This document shows, in pieces, positions 1-13,546 of a stretch of DNA of 64,000 bases; position 1 is the first letter of the stretch; the number at the start of each line of letters is the position of its first letter. The position numbers were made by a program, and so were the translations under genes. The notes beneath the pieces were generated by a model. That model ran no database searches. It was not told the origin of the DNA and saw nothing but the letters and a program-made list of their open reading frames with translations. This stretch comes from Pleomorphomonas carboxyditropha (GTDB lineage Bacteria; Pseudomonadota; Alphaproteobacteria; Rhizobiales; Pleomorphomonadaceae), in NCBI RefSeq assembly GCF_002770725.1, contig NZ_NQVN01000001.1, forward strand, positions 744,001-808,000, written 5' to 3'.

Positions 1-41
1 CCGGGCTTGGGCCGGAAGCGGTTCTCGTCGTCGGCGTTCAT
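1..41 (-). CDS. Relaxase, DUF3363/VirD2-like (N-terminal codons only)
   Basis: Only the first 13 codons lie in the window; the gene runs off the left edge. Reading leftward from the ATG at 41, the peptide begins MNADDENRFRPKP, which resembles the start of the large relaxases of alphaproteobacterial integrative elements. A GGAGG ribosome-binding site sits about 7 nt upstream. Position also fits, because the relaxase usually closes the operon that carries the TraF-type peptidase, DUF736 and lytic transglycosylase genes. The nicking and joining role at oriT is family knowledge. The assignment rests on a very short sequence. Confidence 0.5.
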   Translation of the reverse strand, partial: MNADDENRFRPKP

Positions 42-354
42 GGCTGCGCCTCCGGCCAAAACCCCGGGAAATCGCGCGATCGGCGGCCATGGTGCCAGTA
101 TAAACCAAGCAAAGCCAAGGCTTTGCGCAAGATCACGGCTCGCGCCATCCAAAAACAGGGTGCCGCTCGCGGCTCCCCTAACCAGTGTGCAGACAACAAC
201 AATTTCGAGAACATTGGCGACGTGGTGCCATGTTCCTTTATCTTGCCCTCCGCTCCTTCGATCCCTTCTGCCCTTTCGGCCCGGTATGCCGCTAAGCGCA
301 AACCTGCCTGCCTGCACACCGGAACGAGCGCCGCCGAACGCGGGAACGCCACCT
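42..354. other. Gene-free gap between transglycosylase and relaxase genes
   Basis: I see no convincing gene in these 313 bases, although open frames exist on both strands. A perfect inverted repeat lies at 110-125 (CAAAGCC, 2-nt spacer, GGCTTTG). Gaps next to relaxase genes often hold oriT, so this is a candidate place for it, but I recognise no nick-site consensus. Confidence 0.4.
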
Positions 355-1257
355 TCATGGCGTATCCCCGACGCTCGCGCGGGCAACAAAAATGCTGCCG
401 TCTTGCGGCTCCGTAGCGGTCTGATCGCGCACCGGAACGGTCGCGCGAGCATCACCGGATTGCGTCTCGGACAACGGCATGATGGCGGCCCAGCTGTCAT
501 TCGGGCGCACGATAAAGAGCGGTGCTTCGCGCCAGTCGGGCGGCGGTGCAGCCTGGCGAGCTGGTGCATCGGACGCCGCCACGCCGCCAAGGATCGGCGC
601 AAGCGTCGCGACATAGGCGCGGGTTTCGGCGGGCAGCGGGCGGCCGGTCGAACGGTGCTCGTCATAACGGCCGGGACCAGCGTTATAAGCGGCGAGCATG
701 GCCGGGACGTTGCCGTAGCGATCCCACATTTCACGCATGTAGGCCGTGCCTGCTAGGATGTTGTCACGCGGTTGGTAGGGATCGCGGCCGAGCCGATAGC
801 GGACGCGCAAGCTGGCCCATGTGTCGGGCATAACCTGCATCAATCCCATCGCCCCGGCTGACGAAACCGCGCGCACGTCGCCCGCGCTCTCGGCGCGCAG
901 CACGGCGCGAATCCAGCGTTCGGGGATGCCGAACCGCTGCGACGCCTCCGCGATGTGGTCCGCATGGGGATCGGCGGCAATCAGGAGCGCGACCGACGCG
1001 GATTGCGCGACCACGACGCCCGATCCCATGCAGACGAAAAGCGCCCCGGCGAGCAACAGAAAGGCACAACGCCATGCCGCCCTGTCTCCACCACGACGCC
1101 AGCCTGCCAGCGTGCTCGCTTCGGTAAAGGGTGCGCGCGAAGCGCCGGCCGGGGGCCGCCCTTGACCTTCGCTGCGCGCGCCGGCCGTCTGGTCGTCGAG
1201 CGGGACGAAGGGATGAGACGGATTTCCCGCGAACAAAGGGATGGGAGGAACGCGCAC
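355..1257 (-). CDS. Conjugation-associated lytic transglycosylase (VirB1-like SLT domain)
   Basis: This encodes a 300-residue murein lytic transglycosylase that would open peptidoglycan locally for the conjugation channel. A hydrophobic signal or anchor segment covers about residues 62-85. The SLT fold follows, with catalytic Glu in the RAES motif (E123), the GLMQ motif at 138-141 and the AYNAGPG motif near 190. The first possible start is a GTG with GGAG about 9 nt upstream, 3 nt after the DUF736 stop. The 60 residues before the signal segment are unusual, so the true start may be internal. It is the next-to-last gene of the operon, ahead of the relaxase. Confidence 0.85.
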   Translation of the reverse strand: MRVPPIPLFAGNPSHPFVPLDDQTAGARSEGQGRPPAGASRAPFTEASTLAGWRRGGDRAAWRCAFLLLAGALFVCMGSGVVVAQSASVALLIAADPHADHIAEASQRFGIPERWIRAVLRAESAGDVRAVSSAGAMGLMQVMPDTWASLRVRYRLGRDPYQPRDNILAGTAYMREMWDRYGNVPAMLAAYNAGPGRYDEHRSTGRPLPAETRAYVATLAPILGGVAASDAPARQAAPPPDWREAPLFIVRPNDSWAAIMPLSETQSGDARATVPVRDQTATEPQDGSIFVARASVGDTP

Positions 1258-1260
1258 CGA

Positions 1261-1593
1261 TCAGCTCCGGTCCTCGCGCGCCTTCGGTCGTTTCCACGCC
1301 AGCCGGAAGGTGCGCCCCTCGTCGTCGGCCTGGAACAGCGCCGGGCGAAACAGCGCGGGGAAAAGTGGGCTGTCGATCTCCAGGGCGATGTAGTCTCCGG
1401 CGCGTTCGCCGACACGTTTCCACGCGCCGCCAATGTCGGGGCCGTCCTCGTCGTCGAGGTGGATGCGATAGGCCGGCGCATTGTCGGCGTCGCTCGGTTC
1501 GGTTTCGACAAGCGTGATTGCCTCGTCGATTCCGAACAGCCTGACGCGGCCGGCGTAGCCGTTGGCGGTAGGTTCAAAGATATTGGCAGGCAT
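1261..1593 (-). CDS. DUF736 family protein (operon copy)
   Basis: This is a 110-residue DUF736 protein of unknown function, a family found mostly on alphaproteobacterial plasmids and integrative elements. The conserved core is visible: a GYAGRV-type opening, a DIGGAWKR stretch and an EIDSPLFPALFRPALF segment. The ATG at 1593 was chosen because AAGGAG lies 7 nt upstream; the longer open frame to 1674 has no such signal. It sits between the peptidase and transglycosylase genes in the putative transfer operon. A second DUF736 gene lies at 7966-8283. Confidence 0.85.
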   Translation of the reverse strand: MPANIFEPTANGYAGRVRLFGIDEAITLVETEPSDADNAPAYRIHLDDEDGPDIGGAWKRVGERAGDYIALEIDSPLFPALFRPALFQADDEGRTFRLAWKRPKAREDRS

Positions 1594-1627
1594 TGTCAGT
1601 CTCCTTGTTGGTGGGGGAAGCGCGAAG

Positions 1628-2173
1628 TCAGTGCGTCGGCGCGCGCCACTCGTAGCGGCCGACGCCTTCCTCATCGGTCCAGAGCGGGACTGCCCGACCG
1701 ATGACGGAAGCTGTGGGGATGGGTCCGAAGTAGCGGCCGTCGAGGCTGTCGCGGACCTCCCAATTCAGGAGGAAAATTTCGCCGGGAGCGACGGTGCGGC
1801 AGCCCTGCCAGACGGGCAGATCGCGGCCGATCCGGTCGCGCTCCAGCGCCTCGGCCATCTCGATCCCGTCAACCGTGATCGCGCGGCCGGCGCGGCAAAC
1901 CCGCTGCCCTGGCAGGCCGACGACGCGCTTCAACAGAGGCACACCGCGCCCGACATAGCCGCGCCCGACCATAAAGGTGGCGAGCGGGCCGGGTGGCATG
2001 ACGGCGACAAGATCGGGCACCTCGATCCGGGCGGCCGGCTCGACGGTGTAGAAGCCGACCGGCGCGCTGGCGGTTGCGTTCCAGATGAGTTTCGTCGGCG
2101 TCTCGACCGCGCTTGCGGTGGCGATGCCGAGAACGGCCAGCGCCGTGACGGCGACATAGCGGCGGCGCGTCAC
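1628..2173 (-). CDS. traF: TraF-type S26 family signal peptidase
   Basis: This encodes a membrane-anchored serine peptidase of the S26/TraF family, which in related conjugation systems processes pilin or other transfer proteins. One N-terminal membrane segment (about residues 6-22) precedes the catalytic Ser in SAPVGFY (S36). The general-base Lys lies in LLKRVVGLPG (K82), and a GPIP motif lies near the C terminus. I chose the GTG at 2173, which overlaps the DUF2840 stop as GTGA and has GGAGAA upstream. An ATG at 2200 is the alternative. At 181 residues it is normal for the family. Confidence 0.85.
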   Translation of the reverse strand: MTRRRYVAVTALAVLGIATASAVETPTKLIWNATASAPVGFYTVEPAARIEVPDLVAVMPPGPLATFMVGRGYVGRGVPLLKRVVGLPGQRVCRAGRAITVDGIEMAEALERDRIGRDLPVWQGCRTVAPGEIFLLNWEVRDSLDGRYFGPIPTASVIGRAVPLWTDEEGVGRYEWRAPTH

Positions 2174-2688
2174 GGGTCGATTCTCCGACGCCCGATCCAT
2201 GCCGCATGTCGCTCCGGCGTGTAGTCGCTCGGCTCCAGATTGGCAGTCAGGCGGTTGTGCGCGTGCCGCCAGTAGTCCGGCGATACGTCGACCGGATTGA
2301 GGCCGAGCGCTTCCACGGCGTCGATGACGGCAAGCGCGCGCTGCACCTTCGGCCAGCCGTCGAGCCGCAACAGGATGTCGCCGCCTGGCCGGACGAAGGG
2401 CAACGTCTGGAACGGCTCGCCGCGACCGATAGCGCGCACGATGTCGAGCCGGGAAATGATCGTGCCGTGCTCGCCAGCCGCCCAGCGGACGAAGGCGAAG
2501 ACGCTGTTCGGCGCGAAGCCGACGACGCTGCGGCGGCGGTCGATGATCTGTTCGTAGCTCTTGCGGCCGAACCGTATCCACTGCTCGACCTTGCGCTTAT
2601 CGAAGGTCAGCTCGACGAGTGTGGTGAATGGCGCGGGTCCGTCCAGCAGCGGACGCCCGTGCATGCGGCGGGGAGCACTGCCGGTCAT
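2170..2688 (-). CDS. DUF2840 family protein
   Basis: This is a 172-residue member of the DUF2840 family, whose function is not known. It is recognisable by the central stretch RRRSVVGFAPNSVFAFVRWA and by its fixed place between a ribbon-helix-helix gene and the TraF peptidase in alphaproteobacterial transfer operons. It overlaps both neighbours by 4 nt, so the genes are probably translationally coupled. No signal peptide or membrane segment is apparent, so a cytoplasmic protein is likely. Confidence 0.85.
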   Translation of the reverse strand: MTGSAPRRMHGRPLLDGPAPFTTLVELTFDKRKVEQWIRFGRKSYEQIIDRRRSVVGFAPNSVFAFVRWAAGEHGTIISRLDIVRAIGRGEPFQTLPFVRPGGDILLRLDGWPKVQRALAVIDAVEALGLNPVDVSPDYWRHAHNRLTANLEPSDYTPERHAAWIGRRRIDP

Positions 2689-2939
2689 GTCGGATCTCCT
2701 TCGGAGTGTGAAAACTCACGCGCGAGAAGGCCGCGCAGCATGTCGGTGACGGTGATGCCGCGCCGGAAGGCCGCGACCTTGATGCGGCCGCGTAGCCCCG
2801 GCGTGATGTCGATGGTCAGGCGGGCGGTGAACGCTTCGCCGGCGGCTTTGCTGTCCGGCGGCGCGTCGGCCGCCTTGATCCAGCTTTCGGGATCGCGCGG
2901 ACGCGAGGCGAAGCGAGACTTTCCGGGCGCACGGGTCAT
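2685..2939 (-). CDS. Ribbon-helix-helix protein downstream of ParA
   Basis: This small protein has 84 residues. Its C-terminal half (FTARLTIDITPGLRGRIK, then a helix with GITVTDMLRGLL) looks like a ribbon-helix-helix DNA-binding fold, with a beta strand followed by two helices. It overlaps the ParA stop as ATGA. Small RHH proteins next to ParA usually act as centromere-binding or repressor partners. That role is inferred from position here. The basic N-terminal 30 residues look disordered. Confidence 0.75.
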   Translation of the reverse strand: MTRAPGKSRFASRPRDPESWIKAADAPPDSKAAGEAFTARLTIDITPGLRGRIKVAAFRRGITVTDMLRGLLAREFSHSEGDPT

Positions 2940-3589
2940 GGCGCGGTCCTCCCGATGCGCAGCCGGCCAATCTCGGTGGCCAGCGCCGCGATCTCGCGTG
3001 CGGCGGGGCTGTCGCCATCGATCTCGCTGGCAAGCCGGCCGGACCGCGCGGCGTCGGCGAAGACGACGCGCTGGCCGATGGTCGTGGCGAGCAAAGGCGG
3101 GTCGTGTTCGGCCAACGTCTCGGCCGTCTCGCGAGCGATGACGGTGCGTGCGCCGCAACGGTTGAGGATGAACCGCGCCGCCAACTCGGGCCGATAGATC
3201 CGCGCGTCCCTGAGCAGCGCCAGCATCTCGGCCGAGGCCCAGCCGTCGAAGGGGGACGGCTGCACCGGGATCAGCACCAGATCGGCGGCGAGCAGCGCCG
3301 AGCGCATGAGACCGGCGACGCGGGGAGGCCCGTCGATGACGACGACATCGGCGTCACGCGCCAGCTCCGGGGCTTCGCGGTGCAAGGTGTCACGGGCTAG
3401 GCCGATGACACTGAACAGCCTCGGCAGGCCCTCATGGCTGCGCGTCTGCGACCAGTCGAGCGCGGAGCCTTGCGGGTCGGCGTCGATCAGGATGACGCGC
3501 CGTCCCTGAGCGGCCCAGGCTCCGGCGAGATGGAGCGCCAGCGTGGTCTTGCCGACGCCGCCCTTCTGGTTGAGGAGCGCGACGATCAT
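2936..3589 (-). CDS. parA: ParA family partition ATPase
   Basis: This 217-residue ParA/MinD-like ATPase has no N-terminal DNA-binding extension (type Ib size). The deviant Walker A motif KGGVGKTT covers residues 9-16, IDADPQGSALDW follows at about 39, and VVIDGPPRV provides the Walker B-like strand. It overlaps the replication-initiator gene by 4 nt upstream and the ribbon-helix-helix gene downstream, forming a rep-par cassette inside the transfer operon. It would stabilise a circular or replicating form of the element; that link is inferred. Confidence 0.92.
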   Translation of the reverse strand: MIVALLNQKGGVGKTTLALHLAGAWAAQGRRVILIDADPQGSALDWSQTRSHEGLPRLFSVIGLARDTLHREAPELARDADVVVIDGPPRVAGLMRSALLAADLVLIPVQPSPFDGWASAEMLALLRDARIYRPELAARFILNRCGARTVIARETAETLAEHDPPLLATTIGQRVVFADAARSGRLASEIDGDSPAAREIAALATEIGRLRIGRTAP

Positions 3590-4614
3590 GGCGCACCTCG
3601 CCGGGTGGCACCGGCACCACGGATCGCGTGCGCGCGCGTCAAAGAAGAAGAGTTAGATTCTCTGTTAGATTCTTCTATAGAGTCCCGCGCGAAATTTGCG
3701 CCTAATGTCCCGATACTGCGTGCGCCTAATGTCCCGATAGGATTCACATGCTTGTCCACAGGCACTGTGAATTGTTTTTCAGGGAGAAAGCGCAGCAATT
3801 CACGCCCGTCCTCCCATTCGATCTGAAGGCAATAGCCGGGTAGCGGCTGGCGGTTCGCGATCCGGCGCAAGTCGAGCGCGAAGTCGGACGGCCGTGCCGC
3901 GCTGCCGGATTTTTGGTGAAGGTGGGAAATCTCGAACGCCCAGCCCTCGGGCTGGCGACCGGCGTGCTTGCGGGCGACGCGATATAGCCAGCGCTCGATG
4001 CCGCCGGTCAGCCGGAAATAGGCCGGGTCGATGGTGAGCACCAGCGAGCGGTCGATGACGCTGTTGTAGAACCATTCCGGCAGGACGAATTCCATGCCTT
4101 CGACGCGGCCGCCGCGCGTCGTCATCTCCTCCCATTCGTTGATCCAGGAGAATTGACGGCGACGCCAATGCTTGCCGTTGCGGATGGTGGTGGCGATGAC
4201 GGTGGATTGCAGGCGCGCGAGCGCCGCCTTGAGCAACAGATAGTCGCGGTTGCCCGTCGCCCGCCCAACGGCGCGCAGGAGCTGATAGGGCATGAAACGA
4301 AAGAAGCGCGACGTGCGGAAGCCGTTGTTCTCGGCTGCGACAATCTGCGAGGCGGCCCAGATCAGGACATCGGCATCCCAGATCGTCGCCATGCCGTGCT
4401 CGGGCATGGCGAGCACCTGCACCTCGACATCGGCCGCTCGGTAGAGGATTGGCGCGGTGCGCGGCCGCTTCGCCAGCGAGAAGAAGGGCCGTTCCATCAA
4501 GTCGCGCTGGTCGCGCGGCGCGGCGTCGCCGGTCGCGACCACGAAGGGGTCAAGGCGCGTGCGTTCGCTGGCGTCGCTTGGCTGCGCCGGGACATGATCG
4601 TCGTCGCGCAGCAT
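3586..4614 (-). CDS. repA: Replication initiator protein A (RPA family)
   Basis: This encodes a 342-residue plasmid-type replication initiator. The family is recognisable from RPFFSLAKRPRTAPI near the N terminus, then WDADVLIWAASQ, RFMPYQLLRAVGR and WINEW in the winged-helix part. The C-terminal tail is low in complexity and holds a tandem IGTLGA repeat that comes from a DNA-level direct repeat (3697-3739). It lies directly after the rdfS-like gene and overlaps parA. Its presence suggests that the excised element can replicate, as for other integrative elements with Rep genes. That was not tested here. Confidence 0.88.
   Translation of the reverse strand: MLRDDDHVPAQPSDASERTRLDPFVVATGDAAPRDQRDLMERPFFSLAKRPRTAPILYRAADVEVQVLAMPEHGMATIWDADVLIWAASQIVAAENNGFRTSRFFRFMPYQLLRAVGRATGNRDYLLLKAALARLQSTVIATTIRNGKHWRRRQFSWINEWEEMTTRGGRVEGMEFVLPEWFYNSVIDRSLVLTIDPAYFRLTGGIERWLYRVARKHAGRQPEGWAFEISHLHQKSGSAARPSDFALDLRRIANRQPLPGYCLQIEWEDGRELLRFLPEKQFTVPVDKHVNPIGTLGARSIGTLGANFARDSIEESNRESNSSSLTRAHAIRGAGATRRGAP
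3652..3739. repeat. Iteron-like direct repeats inside the 3' end of repA
   Basis: A 19-bp unit (TGCGCCTAATGTCCCGATA on the plus strand) occurs identically at 3697-3715 and 3721-3739, one copy every 24 bp. Beside it, an AT-rich stretch holds GTTAGATTCT twice (3652-3661 and 3664-3673), one copy every 12 bp. Tandem long repeats next to short AT-rich repeats resemble iterons beside a DNA-unwinding element. The stretch is also coding sequence for the RepA tail. Confidence 0.5.
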
Positions 4615-4884
4615 TCAGAGTTCATCCCGCTCTGCGGGTGTCAGCGGGCGCGCGGGAAAGACCGTGCCGGCGCTCTTGTCGCGGGTGGATTTGCGCGTGC
4701 CGATTGCGCTCCAGGCTTCGAGATCGCGCACGGCGTAGAGGACGCGGCCGCCGATCTTGCGATAGAGCGGTCCGGTGCCATAGGTCCGGTGTTTCTCAAG
4801 GGTGCGGAGCGAAATACCGAGAAAGCGCGCGGCCTCCTTGGTGCGTAGAAGTCGCGGTGGTAGGTCCGCGTTGCGAATGGCCAT
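4615..4884 (-). CDS. AlpA/RdfS-like excisionase (MerR-type helix-turn-helix)
   Basis: This is an 89-residue DNA-binding protein. Residues 12-58 (LLRTKEAARFLGISLRTLEK, a short wing, then GGRVLYAVRDLEAW) form the winged helix-turn-helix of the AlpA/excisionase family. It is the first gene of the operon that ends in the relaxase. That matches rdfS, the recombination directionality factor of ICEMlSymR7A, which sits ahead of traF and the relaxase gene and is switched on by FseA. A good ribosome-binding site (GAGG) lies 7 nt before the ATG. A general transcription regulator is the alternative. Confidence 0.75.
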   Translation of the reverse strand: MAIRNADLPPRLLRTKEAARFLGISLRTLEKHRTYGTGPLYRKIGGRVLYAVRDLEAWSAIGTRKSTRDKSAGTVFPARPLTPAERDEL

Positions 4885-5115
4885 GGGATCACCTCGGATT
4901 CGTCAGACAGGCGGCTGTCGGAAGCGACAGCGGGCTGTGGCGAACCGTGGCGGAGGACCGGCGGCCTGTAGCGTGCCGCATTTAAGCCTATGCGCTGGCG
5001 GCACCCCTGCTAGGGCGACTATCAGGCCGAAAAAGCCGAGAGATTTCAGCGTGTGATTGCGCGTTGCGCGGAATTGGTCGAGACAATCGCGCGCGGGTCG
5101 GCTAAATGTGCCAAC
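4885..5115. promoter_or_regulatory. Leader and promoter region of the rdfS-like operon
   Basis: No gene is visible. A perfect hairpin at 4914-4931 (GCTGTCG, loop GAAG, CGACAGC) lies 30 nt ahead of the rdfS-like start codon. The gap must hold the minus-strand promoter of the transfer operon, but I find no clear -35/-10 pair, as expected for an activator-dependent promoter. Confidence 0.4.
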
Positions 5116-5345
5116 GGAGCAGACGCGCTGCTCCGGGGGCGTAGTAACCCCTGACTAGCGGTTGGTGCCGGCCGTGACGGCACCACACTCCTTGACCCTA
5201 TGGTCGGGGAGCCTGTGGCGTATACAACAGGCTCTCCGAGCTAAAGGCCATGGGGCCGTCTAGTCACGGTTACTAACTCCCCGATCACCAGGAGTCAGAG
5301 AGTCTTATCTGCGGGGGCGTACCGCAGGCGCTCTCCTGAAGGAAG
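5116..5345 (+). ncRNA. Multi-stem structured element ahead of the small DUF2285 gene
   Basis: A long-range stem pairs 5143-5149 with 5268-5274 and 5152-5158 with 5260-5266. It encloses four hairpins: 5163-5170/5178-5185 (8 bp), 5190-5197/5202-5209, 5210-5216/5227-5233 (7 bp) and 5246-5249/5254-5257. Outside it are a 7-bp hairpin at 5116-5122/5128-5134 and a 6-bp hairpin at 5309-5314/5322-5327. An alternative GGGG/CCCC pairing (5135-5139 with 5148-5151) would compete with the closing stem. The last stems reach the ribosome-binding site of the gene at 5356. I match it to no named RNA class. A DNA-level role such as a cruciform, operator array or oriT is equally possible. Confidence 0.5.
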
Positions 5346-5355
5346 GGGAATGACG

Positions 5356-5643
5356 ATGCGGGTTCCCGTTGAACTTGATCCCGATGTGGATGACGTGGCG
5401 CCGACGGGCGATGGGATCACCACATATGACGAGCGGCATTTCGTGACCTATCTGCGGCTCCTCGACGCCAAAGCTGAGGATGCGGAGTGGAAGGAAGTAG
5501 CTAAGATCGTGCTCCACCGCGATCCGGTCGCGGAGGAACTGCGCAGCTATCGGTGCTGGCAAAGCCATCTCGAACGTGCGCAATGGCTCTCGCGCGAGGG
5601 CTACAAGCGGATACTGGAACAGGCAGCCGCCAACAAGGCGTGA
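5356..5643 (+). CDS. Small stand-alone DUF2285 protein, QseM-like antiactivator candidate
   Basis: This 95-residue protein consists almost wholly of a DUF2285 domain (YDERHFVTYLRLLDAKAEDAEWKEVAKIVLHRDP). DUF2285 is a helix-turn-helix variant used in ICEMlSymR7A both by the activator FseA and by its antiactivator QseM, which is a short DUF2285-only protein. The present gene lies next to the split FseA-like gene, convergent with it and 10 nt apart. The ATG at 5356 is preferred over 5350 because GGAAGGGG is then 7 nt away. The antiactivator role is inferred from size and neighbours. Confidence 0.7.
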   Translation: MRVPVELDPDVDDVAPTGDGITTYDERHFVTYLRLLDAKAEDAEWKEVAKIVLHRDPVAEELRSYRCWQSHLERAQWLSREGYKRILEQAAANKA

Positions 5644-5653
5644 TGCCGTGGGG

Positions 5654-6248
5654 CTATCGCTTGCCGACTTTGACCGGATAGTGCAGCAGGAGCCGATAGC
5701 CGCCGCGCATCATCCTGATGCCATGCGCGACGAGGCGACGCGCCTTGTTCTTGCTCGGGTCACTTTCAAAATCCTCCTTGGTGCCGCGGAAACCGAGCAG
5801 GACTTCCGCGATAGTTCGGTAGCTCTCGCCTCGCAGGTTCGCATCCAGCGCGCGCAGGGACAGGATGTGCCATTCCCGGAGTTGCTCGGGCAGGATACCG
5901 ATGGGCAGGCCAGGTGGTCGCCGGGCCAGGGATCGCCAGAGCCGCCGCGTGGCGTGGATGCGAAGCTCCAGAAATGAATCCAACGGCAAAGTCACGGCAT
6001 AGAAAGCCGCCGTATTCGGCACCGCATCGGACAGCCAGAACTGGTGAGTGATGTCGTCTATCTGCCACACGCCGTGCCAGCCATCGGCCGCGCGGCGCAG
6101 GTTAAGGCCGGCGAGATGGGCGAGCGTGACCATCGGCTCAGTCTCTGCGTCCTCTTGTTCGGCAGGCGAGAGCTTGATCGCTTGTGGCTGGAGGCGTGGA
6201 GACCAGAACAGGGATAGTTGATCAGGCGATGCGTCGGGGTCGCTCGGG
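5654..6248 (-). CDS. FseA-like activator, C-terminal DUF2285 part (reached by +1 frameshift)
   Basis: This frame encodes the C-terminal part of a two-domain activator, about 197 residues from PSDPDASP onward. It includes a DUF2285 domain near the end (GESYRTIAEVLLGF, then AHGIRMMRGGYRLLL). The frame has no start codon with a ribosome-binding site. It continues the 6222-6437 frame after a +1 shift at TTT-CCC-G (plus-strand 6246-6251). The joined product would have about 260 residues, like unbroken family members. FseA in ICEMlSymR7A is made by exactly such a programmed +1 shift between a DUF6499 and a DUF2285 frame. A plain mutation or sequence error cannot be excluded. Confidence 0.75.
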
Positions 6249-6437
6249 AAATCGCAACCCCCAGCGTTGCGCAAATCTCTCCAACTGCCTTGCACCGGGT
6301 TTTCCGGTCAGGGCGATGGTCTGGAAATCATGCCGATATTCGTCATTGCGACGAAGATATTCCCAAGCGAAACCGGCAGCGGGAAGATGTCTGATGTCCC
6401 CATAGGCTGCCGGTGAACGCCAGTCGATGCGTAGCAT
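6222..6437 (-). CDS. FseA-like activator, N-terminal DUF6499 part
   Basis: This 71-residue open frame has a strong GGAGG site 8 nt before its ATG. It encodes the DUF6499 'transcriptional regulator' domain, recognisable from IDWRSPAAYGDIRHL, FAWEYLRRNDEYRHDF and RWGLRFP. In the family this domain leads directly into a linker and DUF2285. Here the frame instead ends after seven further codons, while the linker continues in the +1 frame. Translation without frameshifting would give this short protein alone, as Msi172 does in ICEMlSymR7A. Confidence 0.75.
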   Translation of the reverse strand: MLRIDWRSPAAYGDIRHLPAAGFAWEYLRRNDEYRHDFQTIALTGKPGARQLERFAQRWGLRFPERPRRIA

Positions 6438-6697
6438 GGCGTTTCCTCCGAATCGTGGGCATCCAGAAGAGGCCCGAAAGGGAAGCCTGCCGGATTTGGG
6501 GAGCTAACTGTAGTTGCTTTGATACGGAACCTTGTTCGAGTAACCCGATCAGTTTATTAGTTATTTTCTTCTTAACCGTGCTTAGCCTGCTTCGCGAGCC
6601 GGGCATAGCCCGGCGAGCGGCGGCTATGTTTTGGGCATGGCCGCGCCGCCGATCCGCAAAGCCGGATCGGCGGAAAAATGGTGGAAGCGCAAAGCCT
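6438..6697. promoter_or_regulatory. FseA-like promoter region with hairpins, no gene
   Basis: No convincing gene is present. An AT-rich stretch (about 6525-6590) probably holds the minus-strand promoter of the FseA-like gene. Two perfect hairpins follow at 6598-6614 (GCCGGGC, loop ATA, GCCCGGC) and 6646-6673 (11-bp stem CCGCCGATCCG). Neither has a T-run. Confidence 0.35.
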
Positions 6698-6739
6698 GAA
6701 AAGCGGAAAGCCGTAGAGCCGGTTTTCCGGCTCTACGGC
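6698..6739 (-). terminator. Probable terminator of the DUF932 gene
   Basis: A perfect 13-bp stem (GCCGTAGAGCCGG and its complement, 6710-6722/6727-6739) with a 4-nt loop lies 8 nt after the DUF932 stop. On the minus strand it is followed by TTTCCGCTTTTC, a broken T-run. The stem is strong but the tail is imperfect. Confidence 0.6.
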
Positions 6740-6746
6740 ATGACGG

Positions 6747-7592
6747 TCATCGCGTCTTCAATCGCTGCATGCCCTCGGCCAGCGTCCAGAGCGCGCGATT
6801 GAGGGTCACATTCTGGTCGATGCCGTTGATGGGGCGGGTCTGGCTGCGGCGGATGCGGCCTTCGGCATTGCGCCGCTGCCCATGCAAGCCGCCTCTTATC
6901 ATGTTCTCCTGAATGGTGTTGTAGGTCATCCAGAGGCTTTGTCCGGCATCCTCGCGGCGGCGCGGCTGGATGATCTGATCAGGGCGGACGGGGCTTTCCT
7001 CTTCGCCGTAGCGGGCGACAAGGCTGGCCTCGGCCAGAACGCGGCGCTCATCTTCGCCAAGCTGGATTTCCTTCATGGTTTCGCTGGCGTTGATCAGGCG
7101 CGGGAAGTCCTCGGCAACGGTATAGACGCCTTCGATAATGTCATGCTGGATATTGCCCTTGTGGGGGACGCGAACGTCCTCAAACCGCTCGCCCGCCACA
7201 AGGCTGTTGGTGCAGACGAAACGCAACATCCCGGCAAACATCTGGTAGCTGCTGGTTCCGTCATGGGAATTGACGATGATGACTTCCGCCGCCTCCTGCT
7301 TGCCAATGCCGTCATCGCGGCGCAGGCGCAGCATATGTTTGGCGTGGCCGTGGCGGCTGCCGTCACGCGGAACGGACTGCACGGCGAAGAACGGGAACCA
7401 TCCTTCCCGCCGCAACCCCTCCACGATGTCGATGGTGGGGACATAGACGTAACGCTCCGAGCGGCTGTCATGCGCCTCGCGGGCGAAGATGGACGGGACG
7501 TGTCGGTAAAGAGCTTCGTTGTCGAGCGCTTCCCGCCCGGTGATCTGATGGGAATTGCGGCCGAACCGGGTGGCAAGGTGATGATAGGTCAT
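6747..7592 (-). CDS. DUF932 domain protein
   Basis: This encodes a 281-residue DUF932 protein, a family common on plasmids, phages and integrative elements and without a settled biochemical role. Recognisable parts are YHHLATRFGRNSHQIT at the N terminus, YVYVPTIDIVEGLRREGW, and the central MFAGMLRFVCTNSLVAG followed by RVPHKGNIQHDIIEGVY. The ATG at 7592 follows an AAGGATCAAGATC ribosome-binding stretch that is also found before the ParB-like gene. The longer frame upstream is leader sequence. A duplicated leader (7613-7885) lies upstream and a hairpin terminator downstream. Confidence 0.85.
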   Translation of the reverse strand: MTYHHLATRFGRNSHQITGREALDNEALYRHVPSIFAREAHDSRSERYVYVPTIDIVEGLRREGWFPFFAVQSVPRDGSRHGHAKHMLRLRRDDGIGKQEAAEVIIVNSHDGTSSYQMFAGMLRFVCTNSLVAGERFEDVRVPHKGNIQHDIIEGVYTVAEDFPRLINASETMKEIQLGEDERRVLAEASLVARYGEEESPVRPDQIIQPRRREDAGQSLWMTYNTIQENMIRGGLHGQRRNAEGRIRRSQTRPINGIDQNVTLNRALWTLAEGMQRLKTR

Positions 7593-7612
7593 GATCTTGA
7601 TCCTTATGGGTC

Positions 7613-7885
7613 TGGGTTGGAGCGCAGCGCTGCGCTGCAACCCTGGCCGTCGCCGAGACCGGGGGGTGCAAGGCGCAAGGGGGCCGTGACGGAGGGGGAT
7701 CACCCGGCCTGCACGGAACGAGGAACGAAGTGGAGGAAGGCTGGGGATACCGTCACGGCTCCCTTGCGCCGCGCCAGGGGGCGGCGCCCCCAAGCAACAG
7801 CCCGGCCAGAGTGAAGCGGTAGCCGGGGAGAAGATCCGATCGGGATACGTCAAGTCTGAAAACCGGAGAGCCGTGAATCCCGATC
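7613..7885 (-). repeat. Duplicated leader, copy 1 (ahead of DUF932)
   Basis: A run of about 69 identical bases starting at 7613 recurs at 12678 ahead of the ParB-like gene. Shorter shared blocks follow at about 7691-7715 and 7735-7795. The distal end carries a 9-bp inverted repeat, 7838-7846 with 7877-7885 (GATCGGGAT/ATCCCGATC), that matches a covarying repeat in copy 2. The segment also holds a GGGGGC/GCCCCC hairpin near 7778-7792. It probably contains the promoter and 5' untranslated region. Confidence 0.7.
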
Positions 7886-7917
7886 TCCGTATTCCCTGAC
7901 AGGCGGCGGCCATGAGC

Positions 7918-7948
7918 AAAAAAGAAGCCCCGCTCGGGTGAGCGGGGC
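7918..7948 (-). terminator. Rho-independent terminator of the DUF736 gene
   Basis: A 9-bp stem GCCCCGCTC/GAGCGGGGC (7927-7935/7940-7948) with loop GGGT is followed on the minus strand by a T-rich run (plus-strand 7918-7926). It lies 17 nt after the stop codon of the DUF736 gene at 7966. Confidence 0.85.
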
Positions 7949-7965
7949 TGTTCCGGGGGCCGGTC

Positions 7966-8283
7966 TTAGTCGCCGTTGCGGCGGGACCAGATGAGGTTGT
8001 GACCGCTTCCGTCTTCGGCTTCGACCAGGCTGGCGTAGATCGGCGCCGGGAAGCTCGGATCGTCCAGCTTGACGGAGAGGTATTCGCGCTGCGTCTCGCG
8101 GGCGATCTTCTTCCAGGCCGCGCCGAACTCGGTGGCGCCGGCGAAGATGCGGAAGTCGGGGCCGCGCTCGCTGTCGCCCTCGGTGGCGGTGAACTTGGCC
8201 TTGACGTTGAGGGTCAGGGTCTTGACCGAGCCAGCGAAGCCCGCGCCGTTTTCGTTCTTGGTGAAGGTGCCGATGGTCGCCAT
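7966..8283 (-). CDS. DUF736 family protein (second copy)
   Basis: This 105-residue DUF736 protein has the canonical opening [20 protein letters not shown] and the closing [16 protein letters not shown] followed by LIWSR. The function of the family is unknown. It is typical of alphaproteobacterial mobile elements, where it is often expressed alone ahead of DUF932 and ParB-like genes. The ATG at 8283 has AAGGAA 8 nt upstream, and a clear terminator follows the stop. It is only moderately similar to the operon copy at 1261-1593, which has a different core, so the two are diverged paralogues. Confidence 0.9.
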
Positions 8284-9045
8284 TGTCGTATTCCTTTTCC
8301 TGTCGGGTCGCACCATTGCGACCTCGATGGTGGTCGTGAAACCGGGGACGATCGGCCCCGCACCCCTCGGGGCTGGAACGGAGTGGAGGGCGGCCGGCGA
8401 CGGCTTTTTTGCCTCGCGATGCAAAGCCGAAGGCGGCGGAAAAAAGTTGGCGACGGACGTTGCGGGAAGACGAGCGAGACGCCGCTTCAGCGGCGGCGGT
8501 CTTCGGTCAGACCGTGCCAATCGAGGACGCGGATGGAGCGCCCAAACAGGTAATCAAGGGGAATACGGCAATGGCGCCCGTCCCGCGCCTCGCCGGGATC
8601 GGGGATGCTTGCGTGGTTCTGTGGCCGCCGTCTTCCCTGACCCGACCGGCAAGGCCGTTCGCCTATCGCCAGCGGGGGCGACAGCGGGTGCGGCTTCGGC
8701 TGACCTTCGCCGATGCTGCCGTATCCGGTATGGCCGAAACATCGCGTGCGGGACGTCTGCCATGCCTGTGCCAAGCGGATGATCCGAGCTTCCCAGCGCT
8801 GATCCGGCTGCCAGTCGATGCGGACGGACAGCCCAACCCCATCATAGGCTTGCCATGGCGACCATGACCGGCCTTCCGATACAGCCTTGCTCAACCGGAT
8901 GGGGCTATCTGCGAAATGGCCGACGCCACCCTTCGCGTTATGGGATTGAAGCCGAATGGCGGAAACGCGCCGACGGCGTGGTTCCGGCGAAGCCGAAAGC
9001 CCGGCCCGAAGGGCAACGCCCAAACCTTATCGACATTTCCATGTA
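8284..9045. other. Long segment without a confident gene
   Basis: This 760-bp segment has open frames on both strands but none with homology, codon pattern or ribosome-binding site that I trust. One local resemblance stands out. Plus-strand 8783-8812 (encoding DDPSFPALI) is close at DNA level to the 3' part of the neighbouring DUF736 gene, which encodes DDPSFPAPI. This may be a decayed DUF736 fragment on the opposite strand. The start of the segment holds the promoter of the DUF736 gene. Confidence 0.3.
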
Positions 9046-9074
9046 TTGACACTGTAGATACGTTCACCCATATT
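9046..9074 (+). promoter_or_regulatory. Predicted promoter of the tacA-tacT operon
   Basis: TTGACA at 9046-9051 and CATATT at 9069-9074 are separated by 17 bp. Transcription would start at or very near the ATG at 9081, which has no ribosome-binding site, so the message may be leaderless or nearly so. Confidence 0.55.
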
Positions 9075-9080
9075 GCGGTC

Positions 9081-9422
9081 ATGGCAAAAACTCGTCTCGC
9101 CCCTTCCGAATCTACCCGCTCCGCGTCTCCTGCCGTCGCGGCCCGCGCATCTACGTCCGAGGCCAAGGGCAGCATCAACTTGCGGATCGAGACCGACACC
9201 CGCCAGCTCATCGACGATGCGGCGGCGGTCCTCGGCAAGACGCGCACCGAGTTCATGGTGGAGAGCGCGAGGCGACAGGCGGTCGATGTGCTGCTCGACC
9301 AGCGCCTGTTCACACTCGATCCGGAACGCTACGACGCCTTCATGCGGGCGCTCGACAATCCGCCTGCACCGGGGCCTAAGCTCAAGGCTCTGCTACGCCG
9401 GACCCCGGCATGGCAGAAATAG
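9081..9422 (+). CDS. tacA: TacA-like (DUF1778) antitoxin
   Basis: This 113-residue protein has a disordered Ala/Ser-rich N terminus followed by the DUF1778 ribbon-helix-helix (SINLRIETDTRQLIDDAAAVLGKTRTEFMVESARRQA). The C-terminal tail (LDPERYDAFMRALDNPP) is the part that wraps the toxin in this family. Antitoxins of this type bind the partner GNAT toxin and repress their own promoter. The gene overlaps the toxin by 13 nt. A consensus-like promoter lies immediately upstream, and the start at 9081 is favoured by position relative to it. Confidence 0.9.
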   Translation: MAKTRLAPSESTRSASPAVAARASTSEAKGSINLRIETDTRQLIDDAAAVLGKTRTEFMVESARRQAVDVLLDQRLFTLDPERYDAFMRALDNPPAPGPKLKALLRRTPAWQK

Positions 9423-9940
9423 ACGAAGCGGCGGACGATCCCGAATTGCCGCTATCGCCTCCTGTTCCCCTGGCTGCTGAACACGATCTTTCCGAGTTCG
9501 ACTGCGGCGAGCCGGTGCTGAATGACTGGCTGCGTCATCGGGCCTTGAAGAACGAAAGCCGGTTCTCGCGCACATACGTCGTGTGCGAGGGCAATCGGGT
9601 CGTCGGCTATTTCTGCATTTCAGCGGGATCGGTCGAACGGGGAGCGGCTCCCGGTAAGGTGAGGCGCAACGCCCCGGACGTGATTCCGGTTTCGATCATC
9701 GGTCGGCTGGCTGTCAGTCTTGACCATGCGCGCAAGGGTCTCGGCGCGGACCTGCTTTCGGACGCATTGCGCCGGATCGCGCTGGCCTCGCAAAGCATCG
9801 GCATTGGGGCTGTGATGGTCCAGGCCAAGGACGATGCCGCCAGACGCTTCTATCTGCGCTGCGCGGAGTTCATCGAATATCCCGAGGACAGCCGGACGCT
9901 GTTCCTGCCTATCGAAACGGTGGTCGCGGGCTTCGGCTAG
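9410..9940 (+). CDS. tacT: TacT-like GNAT acetyltransferase toxin
   Basis: This is a 176-residue GNAT-fold protein of the TacT family. Members acetylate the amino group of charged tRNA and so stop translation. Visible features are the N-terminal AEHDLSEFDCGEPVLNDWLRHRA stretch, the acetyl-CoA loop HARKGLG, and the C-terminal ARRFYLRCAEFIEYPEDSRTLFLPI typical of these toxins. It follows its DUF1778 antitoxin with overlapping frames. On a mobile element the pair probably acts as an addiction module; that role is inferred. Confidence 0.9.
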   Translation: MAEIDEAADDPELPLSPPVPLAAEHDLSEFDCGEPVLNDWLRHRALKNESRFSRTYVVCEGNRVVGYFCISAGSVERGAAPGKVRRNAPDVIPVSIIGRLAVSLDHARKGLGADLLSDALRRIALASQSIGIGAVMVQAKDDAARRFYLRCAEFIEYPEDSRTLFLPIETVVAGFG

Positions 9941-9948
9941 GTGCCCCT

Positions 9949-10365
9949 CTATCTGGCGGGCTGGCCGACGCCGCTCGCCAGCCGCGCCAAGGCGGACATG
10001 CCCGCGAAACCGCCTCCGACGACACAGAAGATTTGCCGCCAGATGTCGGACGGCACGGCTTCCTTGGTGACGCCATGGACCAGCGCATAGCCCGCAACGG
10101 CAGCGGGGGCGGCGAAGATCAGCGCGACGATCAGGCGGACGATGGGAATGCGAATCGTCTCGAACAGCACCGCCAGAACGCCGAAGGCAATGCCTGCGGC
10201 GAACAGGCCGACCAGTCCCGCGCCGATCAGGCCGGAGCCGGTCTGGTAGGCGAATTGCGCGGCGGTCAGACCAAGCATGAAAGGCAGCGCATAGACGGCG
10301 AGCGTATAAGCGATGACACAAAGAAGCGCGACCAGCGCTACGCTCATGAACATGACTGCGACCAT
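9949..10365 (-). CDS. Predicted inner-membrane protein, unknown function
   Basis: This 138-residue protein is mostly hydrophobic, with about four membrane segments (starting near residues 3, 26, 55 and 84). I do not recognise a family. The ATG at 10365 follows AAAGG by about 9 nt; the frame further upstream lacks a ribosome-binding site. It is convergent with tacT, 8 nt apart, and lies between tacT and the ParB-like gene in the mobile-element part, so it may be an accessory gene of the element. Confidence 0.65.
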   Translation of the reverse strand: MVAVMFMSVALVALLCVIAYTLAVYALPFMLGLTAAQFAYQTGSGLIGAGLVGLFAAGIAFGVLAVLFETIRIPIVRLIVALIFAAPAAVAGYALVHGVTKEAVPSDIWRQIFCVVGGGFAGMSALARLASGVGQPAR

Positions 10366-10466
10366 GATCTTTACCTTTGTCCTACTGCACCGCCTTTCGT
10401 GCAATCGTTACGAAAACTGCTGCGCGCTCTAAAGGTGCCTCTATGTCCTTCATCTGTCGAGGTCAT

Positions 10467-10503
10467 CCGGCCGCGCGGGGTAGCCGCGCGGCCGGATTTT
10501 TTT
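10467..10503 (+). terminator. Rho-independent terminator, plus strand
   Basis: A perfect 10-bp GC-rich stem (10467-10476/10486-10495) is followed by seven T residues at 10497-10503. It points rightward although the nearest plus-strand gene (tacT) ends at 9940. It could insulate the ParB-like gene from rightward transcripts. Confidence 0.65.
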
Positions 10504-10546
10504 CCAATTGAAGGCCGGGACCGCTGACGCGATCCCGGCCGGTGCT

Positions 10547-12658
10547 TCATTCCGCCGCGACGGTGAAAGGCTCGTCCTCCACGGTTTCGGCGTTGTCGGC
10601 CTCCGGCAGAACTTCGGCCTCCATGGCGGGTGCCTCCTGCTGCGCGTCGGCCAGCCACGCAGGCCGCTCGGTGCGCAACAGAGGCGGAAGCCATCCGGTT
10701 CCGGCCAGAAGCCGTTCGGCGGCTTCGGCCATCTCCGGCTTCTTCTTGCCCGCGATACGCTCGGCTGCCTCGTCGCCAAGGGGTTCGCGCACGGCGGCGA
10801 GGATATGAGCCTTGGTCACGCGACCGAGATAGGCCCGCACGGTGGGCGTCCAGTGCGCCGTCATGTCAAGCGCAACCGCCGTCGCCAGCCTGTCCGCCGT
10901 TTCGTGGGCGCGGCGCTTGTGCTGCTCCCACGGCACCTTGACCGCATTGACGGTCTGCGCGGCGCAATGGGCGAACAGCGCCATGACGCTGGCATGGTCC
11001 AGCCCGGCAATGAAGCCCCAAAGGTCCGACACGTCGCGCGGCATGTCCGCCGCCCATCCGGCATGACGATCCGCCAGCGCCTTCGCCGCTGCCGTGTCCT
11101 CGATCCCATCCGCATGCCCGCCAAGGCTGGCGCTGATCGGACGGATTTCGAGGCAATGCGCTTCCCCGCTACCACGATAGAAGGTCTGCGCGGCGAGCGC
11201 ATGGGTGACAGCGATCAAGGCCATGTCCGGCTGCTCACCAAGGGCGAGACGCAGGCCAAGCGTCCGGTGGGCGGTCAGGTCGCGGATGAGAAGGTCGGAA
11301 ATCGGCTTGCCGTCTTCCTCCGCTTCCTCGTCCTCGATGTCGAGCGCGGAAACATGGTTCCCGTCCTCGTCATACTCGCCGTCCTCTCCGATGATCTCGC
11401 CATCGCCGTTAACGCGAACGCCGTCGATGATGGTTTCGCCGTCCGCGCCTTCTTCTTCCTCCGGTTCCGGGGCCTCGTCCTCGGGTCGGATGAAACCGCG
11501 CTCGATGCGGACGGCGCCGTCATGGTTCAGAACCACGAAAACCCCGCCGCGCCCGATCTCGTCGGGATCATAGGCATGGCGCAGCCCGTCGATGCGCTCG
11601 ATCTCGGCTTCAAGCTCCGCAAGGCGCTGATCCACCTCGGGCGGCAGGTCCTCGTCCGCGTCCTGCCATTCCGCCGACAGGTGCTCAAGTTCCTCTTGCG
11701 CGGCATCGTAGGCGGCTTCCTGCTCCTCGGATAGCTCCACCCCCTGCGGATAGGTGCGGCGCATGCCATGGGCGTGGGGCCAGTCGATATAGGCCGAAAC
11801 CCATTTCCATCCCTCGGCCTCCTGAACCTCGGCGGCGATCCGTTCCAGCTTGTCGAGGGCAAGCCGGTCCAGAAGCGCTGCATCCTCGTAGAAGCCGCCG
11901 CGATCCTCGGTGAACAGGTCGCGGATGATGTAGCCGCCCGCCTCGGTATAGGCTTCCGGCCCGACAAACACCGCGCGCCGATCCGAAGCCGCCACGTTGC
12001 TCGCGGTCAGATCGCGGCGGATGATCCACGGTTCCTTGTTATAGGACAGGTTTTCGTAAACCTGTTCCTGCCGGTCGTGATCGTCGGTGATGGCGAACGC
12101 CTGCAACTGGTCCATGGTCAGCCCGCCGTCGCGGTAAATCTGAATGAGCTTGGGGCTGACGGCTCCAAGGCGAAGCCGCTGCTTCACCACATGCGCGCTC
12201 GTGCCGAACCGGGCCGCAATTTCCTCCGCGCCCCATCCGCGATCTTCGGAAAGCTCGCGGAACTTCTCGAACTCGTCGGCAGGGTGAAGGTTTTCGCGGT
12301 TGACGTTCTCGTCAAGGCTGATCTCGGCGGCATCATTCGCCGTGTCGATGACGCAGCGGACCGGCTCGGTCTTTTTGATCTCCTTGCGCTTGGCGCGCAG
12401 AAGCTGCGCCAGCCTGCGGCCTTCTCCGACGCTGACCAGATAGAAACCGGTCGGCTCGCCTTCCGCGTCAAGCTCCGGCTCCACCACAAGGTTTTGCAGG
12501 ATACCCTTGGCGGCGATGCTCGCCGCCTTCCCCTCGATAGACGCCTCGCTGTGCGGGGTCTTCCGGGCGTTCTTCGGGTGCTTCTTGAGCTTGTTGAGCG
12601 GGATGAAAACCGTTTCGCCATGTTCGGGAACGGTCGTGATCTGTGCATTGTTCGTCAT
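10547..12658 (-). CDS. Large ParB/RepB/Spo0J-domain protein of the mobile element
   Basis: This encodes a 703-residue protein with an N-terminal ParB nuclease-like domain (VFIPLNKLKKHPKNARK, then GEGRRLAQLL and ENVNRENLHPADEFEKF). A helix-turn-helix follows (GWGAEEIAARFGTSAHVVKQRLRL). The rest is a long family-specific C-terminal part with an acidic linker (EDEAPEPEEEEGADGE). It is far larger than chromosomal ParB and has no adjacent parA. Proteins of this type are usual companions of DUF932 and DUF736 genes on alphaproteobacterial elements and may control gene expression or DNA maintenance. The ATG at 12658 shares its leader with the DUF932 gene. Confidence 0.85.
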   Translation of the reverse strand: MTNNAQITTVPEHGETVFIPLNKLKKHPKNARKTPHSEASIEGKAASIAAKGILQNLVVEPELDAEGEPTGFYLVSVGEGRRLAQLLRAKRKEIKKTEPVRCVIDTANDAAEISLDENVNRENLHPADEFEKFRELSEDRGWGAEEIAARFGTSAHVVKQRLRLGAVSPKLIQIYRDGGLTMDQLQAFAITDDHDRQEQVYENLSYNKEPWIIRRDLTASNVAASDRRAVFVGPEAYTEAGGYIIRDLFTEDRGGFYEDAALLDRLALDKLERIAAEVQEAEGWKWVSAYIDWPHAHGMRRTYPQGVELSEEQEAAYDAAQEELEHLSAEWQDADEDLPPEVDQRLAELEAEIERIDGLRHAYDPDEIGRGGVFVVLNHDGAVRIERGFIRPEDEAPEPEEEEGADGETIIDGVRVNGDGEIIGEDGEYDEDGNHVSALDIEDEEAEEDGKPISDLLIRDLTAHRTLGLRLALGEQPDMALIAVTHALAAQTFYRGSGEAHCLEIRPISASLGGHADGIEDTAAAKALADRHAGWAADMPRDVSDLWGFIAGLDHASVMALFAHCAAQTVNAVKVPWEQHKRRAHETADRLATAVALDMTAHWTPTVRAYLGRVTKAHILAAVREPLGDEAAERIAGKKKPEMAEAAERLLAGTGWLPPLLRTERPAWLADAQQEAPAMEAEVLPEADNAETVEDEPFTVAAE

Positions 12659-12677
12659 GATCTTGATCCTTTTGGCT

Positions 12678-12978
12678 TGGGTTGGAGCGCAGCGCTGCGC
12701 TGCAACCCTGGCCGTCGCCGAGACCGGGGGGTGCAAGGCGCAAGGGTGGACGGGCGGAGGGGGATCACCCGGCCTGCACGAAGCGGATCGAAGTCATGAC
12801 GAAGGTGCGAGAGCAGGCATCCGCGCGGAAGGCTGGGGATACCGCCCGGCCGCCCTTGTGCCGCGCCAGGGGGCAGCGCCCCCAAGCGCTCGCCCGGCCA
12901 AAGCGAAGTGGAGGCCCGGCACAAGAATCGGATCAGGAGGTGAGAGGTCTGAAAGCCGGAAGTCCTGACTTCCTGATC
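12678..12978 (-). repeat. Duplicated leader, copy 2 (ahead of the ParB-like gene)
   Basis: This copy begins with the same run of about 69 bases as 7613 and shares later blocks, including GGAGGGGGATCACCCGG and the GGGGGC/GCCCCC hairpin. Its distal inverted repeat is GATCAGGA/TCCTGATC (12931-12938 with 12971-12978). It differs from copy 1 by one G:C to A:T pair change on both arms, so pairing is kept. There is no gene in 12659-13048. Confidence 0.7.
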
Positions 12979-13048
12979 GCAGCTTCATCTTGCGAGAGAA
13001 GAGAGTAGAATGTGAGCATCATCGGGTGATCGGCAGTGCGGCTTTGCC

Positions 13049-13477
13049 ATGACCGAGGAACGGAACCGGGAGATTTTGAAGCGTCGTCGAGCTGGCGAGA
13101 CCTTCGCCGCAATCGCGCGCGACCATAGTGTGTCCGTCCCACGCGTCCGCCAGATATTCGAACGCGAGGAAAGAAAGGATCTACGTCGGAAAGAGCTGGC
13201 GGAGGCCGACCGCCGTGCCGATCAGCCGAATCTGCTTCATCTCGACCCCTGGGTGCGGCAACTCTTGGCCGAGTTCTGCGGCAAGGCGGAGTTCACGCCG
13301 GATGATGTCGAGAGACGGGGCTTCTGGCGAAGCAACTTCTCCTGCGAGGAGCCGGTCTGGCGCGCGATCGTGAAATGGATGGCGCTCGCCGGCAAACAGC
13401 CGGCGAAACTGCCCTTTAGATGGACGATCGAGGAATGGCAGGAGCACGATTTCGGAGATGTGCCCAAGCGCCCCTGA
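13049..13477 (+). CDS. Hypothetical protein with sigma-70 region 4-like helix-turn-helix
   Basis: This 142-residue protein begins with a helix-turn-helix resembling sigma-70 region 4 (RRRAGETFAAIARDHSVSVPRVRQIFEREERK, residues about 12-43). The remainder is unrecognised (LLAEFCGKAEFTPDDVERRGF, then FRWTIEEWQEHDF). It is probably a DNA-binding accessory regulator of the element. No strong ribosome-binding site precedes the ATG. It lies divergently from the ParB-like leader. Confidence 0.6.
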   Translation: MTEERNREILKRRRAGETFAAIARDHSVSVPRVRQIFEREERKDLRRKELAEADRRADQPNLLHLDPWVRQLLAEFCGKAEFTPDDVERRGFWRSNFSCEEPVWRAIVKWMALAGKQPAKLPFRWTIEEWQEHDFGDVPKRP

Positions 13478-13546
13478 GCCGAAGCGTCTCACGCGCCTGC
13501 GGGGAAACGCGGGTCGGATACTTGGGCGCGAGGAAGGAACGGGCGC

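Follow-up and report, generated by a model that had tools for sequence, protein, structure and literature searches.

Evidence from codon comparison for a conserved +1 frameshift site in the fseA gene of a 47-kb ICE

Sequence comparison supports a conserved programmed +1 frameshift site, understood as a sequence rather than as an event, in the fseA gene of a 47-kb ICE of Pleomorphomonas carboxyditropha. The gene lies in a stretch of 64,000 nucleotides (positions 744001-808000 of contig C11 in genome G000), which is called the window in the following. FseA +1 frameshifting as such has already been published; the available text of that study lists 4709 FseA homologues, about 61% of them with a +1 site, and notes the sequence UGGGGG (PMC10359603). 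The frameshift is therefore known and the gene of the window is a further example. What the present comparison adds is threefold. A comparison of codons, in which single-frame homologues serve as the control, puts selection on the nucleotides of the FseA joint; UUU-C, preceded by a preferred codon in the E site, emerges as the likely slip; and the switch is found in an ICE that lacks its own detectable quorum-sensing genes and of which near-identical copies occur in assemblies from two bacterial families. No codon analysis of the FseA joint was found in the available portions of PMC10359603, PMC5009743, PMC8627217, PMC5882170, PMC9601964 and PMC11963761, a literature sample in which subscription journals are mostly uncovered.

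Results

The two reading frames of fseA

The elements of fseA and of its joint in the window are as follows.

6222..6437, minus strand: zero frame with the DUF6499 (PF20109) half of fseA; 71-aa product without the shift
6445..6449, minus strand: GGAGG, likely fseA ribosome-binding site, assigned from the sequence
6258..6263, minus strand: TGGGGG, proposed Shine-Dalgarno (SD)-like stimulator, assigned from codon bias and anti-SD pairing
6249..6254, minus strand: CGA_TTT, proposed E-site codon and P-site slip codon, assigned from codon bias and the single-frame comparison
6246..6248, minus strand: CCC, zero-frame A-site codon, the first C of which completes UUC for the shifted tRNA-Phe
5654..6247, minus strand: +1 frame with the middle region and the DUF2285 (PF10074) half of fseA, in which reading would continue at CCG once the slip has taken place

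The zero frame starts with an ATG at 6437, comprises 71 codons for amino acids and is closed by a TGA ending at 6222. It matches PF20109 with an E-value of 5.7e-25 and contains AWEYLRRN, which corresponds to the AWEFLRRN-like motif of FseA-family DUF6499 domains. The +1 frame, which ends at 5654, matches PF10074 (DUF2285/RovC) with an E-value of 3.1e-27. On the minus strand the joint reads TGG GGG TTG CGA TTT CCC G, with CGA at 6254-6252 and TTT at 6251-6249; on the frameshift reading, the predicted full FseA consists of 260 aa. A single-sequence search gave no solved structure similar to the +1 half, and no NCBIfam names were found for the two halves.

An earlier reading made from the letters of the window alone (the sequence-only reading) had described a DUF6499 frame at 6222-6437 with a good ribosome-binding site and a DUF2285 part that continues in the +1 frame after TTT-CCC-G. 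Both descriptions are confirmed: the coordinates are correct, GGAGG lies at 6449-6445, and behind the TTT and the CCC at 6248-6246 the frame with the PF10074 match runs to 5654. Its further statement that the downstream frame has no usable start is nearly right, but a GTG at 6295 falls in the +1 frame; such starts are not conserved in position.

Conservation of the +1 offset

In order to compare the joint among homologues, 10 loci, then 24 more, 80 named loci and 90 further stretches were gathered, the first three sets by resemblance to DUF6499, the 80 named loci by resemblance to the window's own copy. After removal of the duplicates L117 and L118, 203 loci were scored with profiles for both halves; 20 of these are identical in 150 nt to another locus, which leaves 183 distinct ones. 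The +1 offset was found in 186 of the 203 loci (zero offset, 11; no C-terminal half, 5; other, 1) and in 166 of the 183 distinct loci (11, 5 and 1, respectively), a frequency that, given this choice of loci, is no census; both scoring profiles were built from window-like loci. The offset, the conservation of which among homologous loci the sequence-only reading had proposed to check, is kept in most of them. Note that a phylum-wide sample lists many long single-frame homologues; in a plasmid collection, 35 records have a DUF6499 match, the best with 78.9%.

Among the 80 named loci, 78 have the +1 offset; the exceptions are L072 and L110. In L072 (Neomegalonema perideroedes; DUF6499 74% identical), the protein is encoded in one unbroken frame; the interval from the G run to CGA is shortened by one base, and the AWE motif has Arg instead of its conserved Trp. 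L110 has offset 0, an altered W codon and a second indel restoring the frame, with the zero-frame stop still in place. L026 and L106 contain an extra frame change in mid gene. L072, L110, L026 and L106 look like decayed or altered copies, although a sequencing error may account for any of them. In L047, the DUF2285 profile was matched in part only. The remaining nine zero-offset loci are remote single-frame homologues.

Of the 186 +1 loci, 170 pass a WGxxF filter, and 152 are left once identical 150-nt stretches are removed. The 16 loci that fail the filter as scored are 15 remote partial matches, among which at least L197 and L199 nevertheless have TTT-C in place, and L154, which has TGT at the expected TTT position. 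In L179, of which L182 is an identical copy, no stop interrupts the DUF6499 frame for 283 codons beyond the AWE motif, yet the DUF2285 half is found in +1.

Codon selection at the joint

Without exception, TTT is the slip codon in the 152 distinct loci with WGxxF, a filter that would admit TTC and that, where two W codons are possible, prefers the one with TTT; among the other Phe codons of the same genes, TTT makes up 28%. The result is the same for representatives (one per 80%-identity cluster of the N domain; TTT in 75/75) and for all 46 clusters at 60% identity. Further codons of the joint are biased in the 75 representatives: the Gly codon is GGG in 77% (background 12%), the Leu codon TTG in 65% (12%), the Arg codon CGA in 51/56 (9%) and the Pro codon CCC in 96% of 47 (26%). 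Most upstream codons resemble the background, although an Ala and an Asp position were flagged too, and no bias run comparable to the joint was found among the downstream codons. Pairing with the anti-SD sequence is maximal at the G run (-8.6, versus roughly 0 to -2.7 elsewhere), which is the sole strong match near the joint.

As a control, 47 loci were considered for a single-frame comparison; 9 of them are unclassifiable, and 7 of the remaining 38 have no readable W codon. Of the 12 single-frame homologues whose WG joint is readable, none has GGG or CGA there and three have TTT at W+4, followed by C in two, which are the near-copies L190 and L191; L202 and L203 are a further pair of near-copies in this comparison. 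Because GGG and CGA are missing from these homologues and TTT is not, the G run together with CGA, rather than UUU-C alone, marks the frameshifting genes. The codon comparisons show that the joint is under selection at the level of nucleotides, as deduced from synonymous choices. RNA structure on the 3' side was considered as a stimulator and rejected: the folding energy of the 60 nt downstream is -15.5 versus -15.7 kcal/mol for the shuffled sequence (one mononucleotide shuffle each).

The slipping codon

In the 152 distinct loci, TTT is followed by C (147) or T (5), and the next codon is CCC in 114, CGC in 25 and TCC, CGT, CCT, CGG, TGC, CTT or CAC in 13. A slip on UUU-C appears more likely than one on CCC-G, because pairing rules bar a slip of the next tRNA at CGC or TCC, while tRNA-Phe could move from UUU to UUC or UUU at all 152 loci. 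That tRNA-Pro on CCC-G makes the +1 slip instead is quite unlikely. CCC is the commonest next codon, CCC-G occurs in 79 of the 152 distinct loci, and in the available text on the RF2 setting CCC and UUU are the next most slippery codons (PMC10885494), which backs both readings. Against a slip of tRNA-Pro, the other 38 of the 152 loci (CGC, CGT, TCC etc.) should not slip by re-pairing yet retain the +1 offset, and it is TTT that is constant throughout. Of the TTTCCCG context, the conservation of which the sequence-only reading had asked about, TTT is constant in these 152 loci and CCC-G is present in 79. That reading is right in outline; the slip by CCC-G implied by its wording is less probable than UUU-C.

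For the preferred slip of tRNA-Phe on UUU-C, the E-site codon deserves attention. CGA is paired only weakly by an inosine anticodon. A related site is known from influenza A PA-X, where a slip on UUU-C was concluded at UCC_UUU_CGU, where a change of the E-site codon lowered frameshifting, and which led to the prediction of a wider class of UUU_C stimulators whose A- and E-site codons are restricted (PMC3498833, available text). The two sites share a +1 slip at a P-site UUU_C and restricted neighbouring codons. The influenza site differs in that it is read by a eukaryotic ribosome and has UCC in the E site versus CGA here; UCC_UUU_C is found, however, in three distinct remote FseA loci (L179 with its identical copy L182, L195 and L196). 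CGA_UUU_C of the FseA genes fits the class predicted in PMC3498833.

The gene for release factor 2 (prfB) resembles the FseA joint in having an upstream SD-like G run and a P-site +1 slip. In RF2 the spacing from the SD-like run to the slip codon is 3 nt, whereas the G run of the window lies 6 nt ahead of the slip codon. Because of this spacing, the G run may pause the ribosome rather than push it. Combining these features, we tentatively propose, as an idea with somewhat less than even chances, that the FseA genes use a compact bacterial class of +1 stimulators of the form (SD-like G run)-CGA_UUU_C. Here, the E-site codon would be chosen for weak pairing, tRNA-Phe would gain pairing at UUC, a 3' stimulator would be dispensed with, and the remote UCC_UUU_C loci would signify convergence with PA-X. 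In the ICE of the window, where a second rdfS-type promoter block precedes the recombinase operon, one rare shift could then switch excisionase and recombinase jointly.

The QseM homologue and the rdfS region

The genes and sites surrounding fseA in the window are as follows.

6747..7919, minus strand: DUF932 gene, upstream of fseA (Pfam)
5350..5643, plus strand: predicted QseM-like antiactivator with DUF2285 as its sole domain and a calculated pI of 5.1; convergent with fseA (homology)
4973..5004, minus strand: perfect 7-bp inverted repeat GTGCCGC-N18-GCGGCAC, candidate FseA box, upstream of rdfS at -89 to -120
4615..4884, minus strand: rdfS-like excisionase (HTH_17; weak TIGR01764 match under its cut-off)
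3586..4614, minus strand: repA-like gene (PF10134), downstream of rdfS (Pfam)
2936..3589, minus strand: parA-like gene (Pfam)
2170..2688, minus strand: DUF2840 gene (Pfam)
1628..2581, minus strand: ORF with provisional start, ending in a traF-like S26 peptidase domain (PF10502, residues 144-301; Pfam)

The QseM homologue matches R7A QseM (7uqt_A) with an E-value of 5.8e-18 and possesses a DUF2285 without a DUF6499 domain; its PF10074 score of 25.3 bits is just below the cut-off of 26.4. The predicted pI is 5.1 versus 11.4 for the DUF2285 part of FseA; the net charge of the QseM homologue is -5 for the whole protein and 0 for its DUF2285 part. A charge contrast between QseM and the DUF2285 domain of FseA is described in the available text of PMC10359603. 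In a survey of 114 loci, many of which have only about 1.5 kb of flank, a qseM gene is convergent and adjacent in 44, convergent with an insert in 32, on the same strand upstream in 19 and was not found in 15; in 4 the contig ends too soon. The inserts between fseA and qseM (e.g. L040, L084, L110) measure roughly 0.4 to 4 kb and resemble a cargo hotspot. Guessed from first residues, they contain arsenite efflux in L084 and SIR2-like and HerA-like genes in L110.

Genes similar to rdfS, repA, DUF2840 and traF lie downstream of fseA in many loci with enough flank. Perfect 7-mer pairs with a spacing of 13-20 bp precede rdfS in 24 of 72 representatives, compared to 2.2 in mononucleotide shuffles, with spacing that varies. 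The published FseA box consists of two inverted hexamers spaced by 15-16 bp upstream of rdfS (PMC10359603, available text); the repeat in the window, with a spacing of 18-20 bp, is an inexact match.

A model for the fseA switch and its alternatives

A closely related known system is ICEMlSymR7A of Mesorhizobium. Its FseA (msi172-msi171) likewise consists of DUF6499 and DUF2285 in two frames joined by a +1 shift, a TGGGGG-like sequence encodes WGL, and rdfS and the antiactivator QseM are present (PMC10359603, available text). The suggestion of the sequence-only reading that the window encodes an FseA-like activator with a programmed +1 frameshift is supported by the two domains, the conserved offset and codons, the QseM homologue beside fseA and the rdfS-, repA-, DUF2840- and traF-like genes downstream. 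Very probably, fseA of the 47-kb ICE is expressed by a +1 slip, the resulting FseA activates rdfS, and the QseM homologue blocks it. In this model, ribosomes would begin at 6437 and produce DUF6499. At TGGGGG-TTG-CGA-UUU-C, the SD-like run would pair with 16S rRNA and hold the ribosome; with CGA held weakly in the E site, the P-site tRNA-Phe would slip from UUU to UUC. A minority of ribosomes would go on in the +1 frame and make full FseA, the rest stopping after 71 aa. Acting via the inverted repeat at 4973-5004, FseA would then activate rdfS; binding of DUF6499 by the convergent QseM homologue would block FseA. Slippage in this gene, its low rate and the codon on which it takes place are inferences, as are activation of the promoter, antiactivation and the consequence for transfer; by analogy with ICEMlSymR7A, the frameshift would keep transfer rare.

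Three other explanations of the split gene were weighed. The sequence-only reading had named a chance single-base mutation as the rival and an extra base due to sequence error as a further concern. A close relative in one frame does exist, but it occurs once (L072), in a copy altered elsewhere too. The offset and the codons of the joint are conserved across distant relatives and the codons are under selection; moreover, a sequencing error is unlikely because a 99.9%-identical stretch in the separate assembly of another family has the same joint. That either accident split an intact gene is therefore scarcely conceivable. Each frame might also yield its own protein, with translation of the DUF2285 half beginning at an internal codon, as was argued for the Azorhizobium homologues rihF1b/rihF1a, described as separate genes without frameshifting in the available text of PMC9601964. 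Such a start could be the GTG in the +1 frame of the window, and an ATG, GTG or TTG start-like codon occurs in 102 of 152 distinct loci. Its position is not conserved, however, the commonest single one being a TTG in 34/152, and synonymous selection falls on the slip site, which makes independent translation very unlikely.

Finally, the 71-aa zero-frame product may itself be selected, for example as a decoy soaking up QseM. QseM is reported to bind DUF6499 (PMC10359603, available text), and in 66 of 152 distinct loci the zero-frame stop lies 8 codons past the slip. On the other hand, zero-frame stops come no earlier than in synonymous resampling (46 clusters, mean percentile 0.468, p 0.42), a test that addresses length and not function, and we regard selection of this product as unlikely.

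The 47-kb ICE and its distribution

One feature of the window delimits the element.

1..13932, no strand: right portion of the ICE, which is ~47 kb long (C11 about 711005-757932) and has its right junction after 13932

Over 46,960 bp, C11:710976-757932 aligns at 99.76% identity with a contig of an Aurantimonadaceae metagenome assembly, and the alignment stops on both sides before that contig does. In this assembly (L035), the fseA joint is identical, and the DNA is 99.93% identical over positions 225-12436 of the window. The host is placed close to Pleomorphomonas by its DnaB-like protein, so called on the basis of sequence, which shares 99% identity with its counterpart in P. koreensis DSM 23070 and 75% or less with those of the other 16 genomes searched; DnaB of the Aurantimonadaceae assembly is only 67% identical to that of the ICE host. 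If the bin is right, these identities signify a recent transfer between families.

The left end of the ICE lies at the 3' end of a tRNA-Ser gene (L116 6915-7004), and the left junction in the Aurantimonadaceae contig adjoins the 3' part of a tRNA-Ser-like sequence, which is not called by ARAGORN. In other Pleomorphomonas genomes, the similarity of the loci to the left flank extends approximately to the end of the tRNA; for the right flank, no match was found in the 13 short stretches compared. Among the matches listed for the ICE ends, short direct repeats are weak (14-27 bp), with no clear att core.

The ICE carries a serine recombinase, trb-type genes, a coupling protein, a DUF3363 protein and rdfS; trb conjugation genes, coupling protein and rdfS are shared with ICEMlSymR7A. 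It differs from ICEMlSymR7A in that qseM is convergent with fseA, in the serine recombinase at one end beside tRNA-Ser, in the 18-20 bp spacing of the candidate FseA box, and in having no match to LuxR or LuxI that would point to TraR/TraI quorum-sensing control on the element. Matches to LuxR (PF03472) or LuxI (PF00765) were absent within C11:711005-757932, three and one, respectively, being found elsewhere in the genome; therefore, it would be premature to ascribe the quorum-sensing input of ICEMlSymR7A to this element. Among 79 elements of Mesorhizobium, a serine recombinase is reported for five IMEs and a single ICE, and tRNA-Ser adjoins some of the ICESyms (PMC8627217, available text).

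As cargo, the ICE contains an RND-type efflux pump (L116 15322-20000 and L115 35-1805), with an AcrB/AcrD/AcrF domain (E 1.1e-115) in L116 17464-20000; the other pump ORFs are named from sequence only. A second rdfS-type promoter block, 84% identical over 68 bp, is located at L116 9397-9464, with the repeat GTGCCGC-N18-GCGGCAC at 9430-9461 (C11 about 713430). It precedes a 104-aa ORF at 9031-9345 that matches no Pfam family, a MarR-like gene and the serine recombinase; in L096, an ORF with a similar start likewise follows such a block. The 104-aa ORF may encode a directionality factor.

A second DUF6499 gene of the genome lies in G000:C44:64001-84000 (L118; L002), with TTTCCCC and the +1 offset. 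It is accompanied by a separate repA-like gene and an ORF that apparently encodes a coupling protein, and the locus probably belongs to a second element. Within the 47-kb ICE, two pairs of repeated blocks were observed, the partner positions of which were worked out from the L035 alignment: window positions 12654-12958 are repeated directly at about 7587-7864 (about 78% identical), and 8635-8906 in inverted orientation at about 7925-8219 (about 68% identical).
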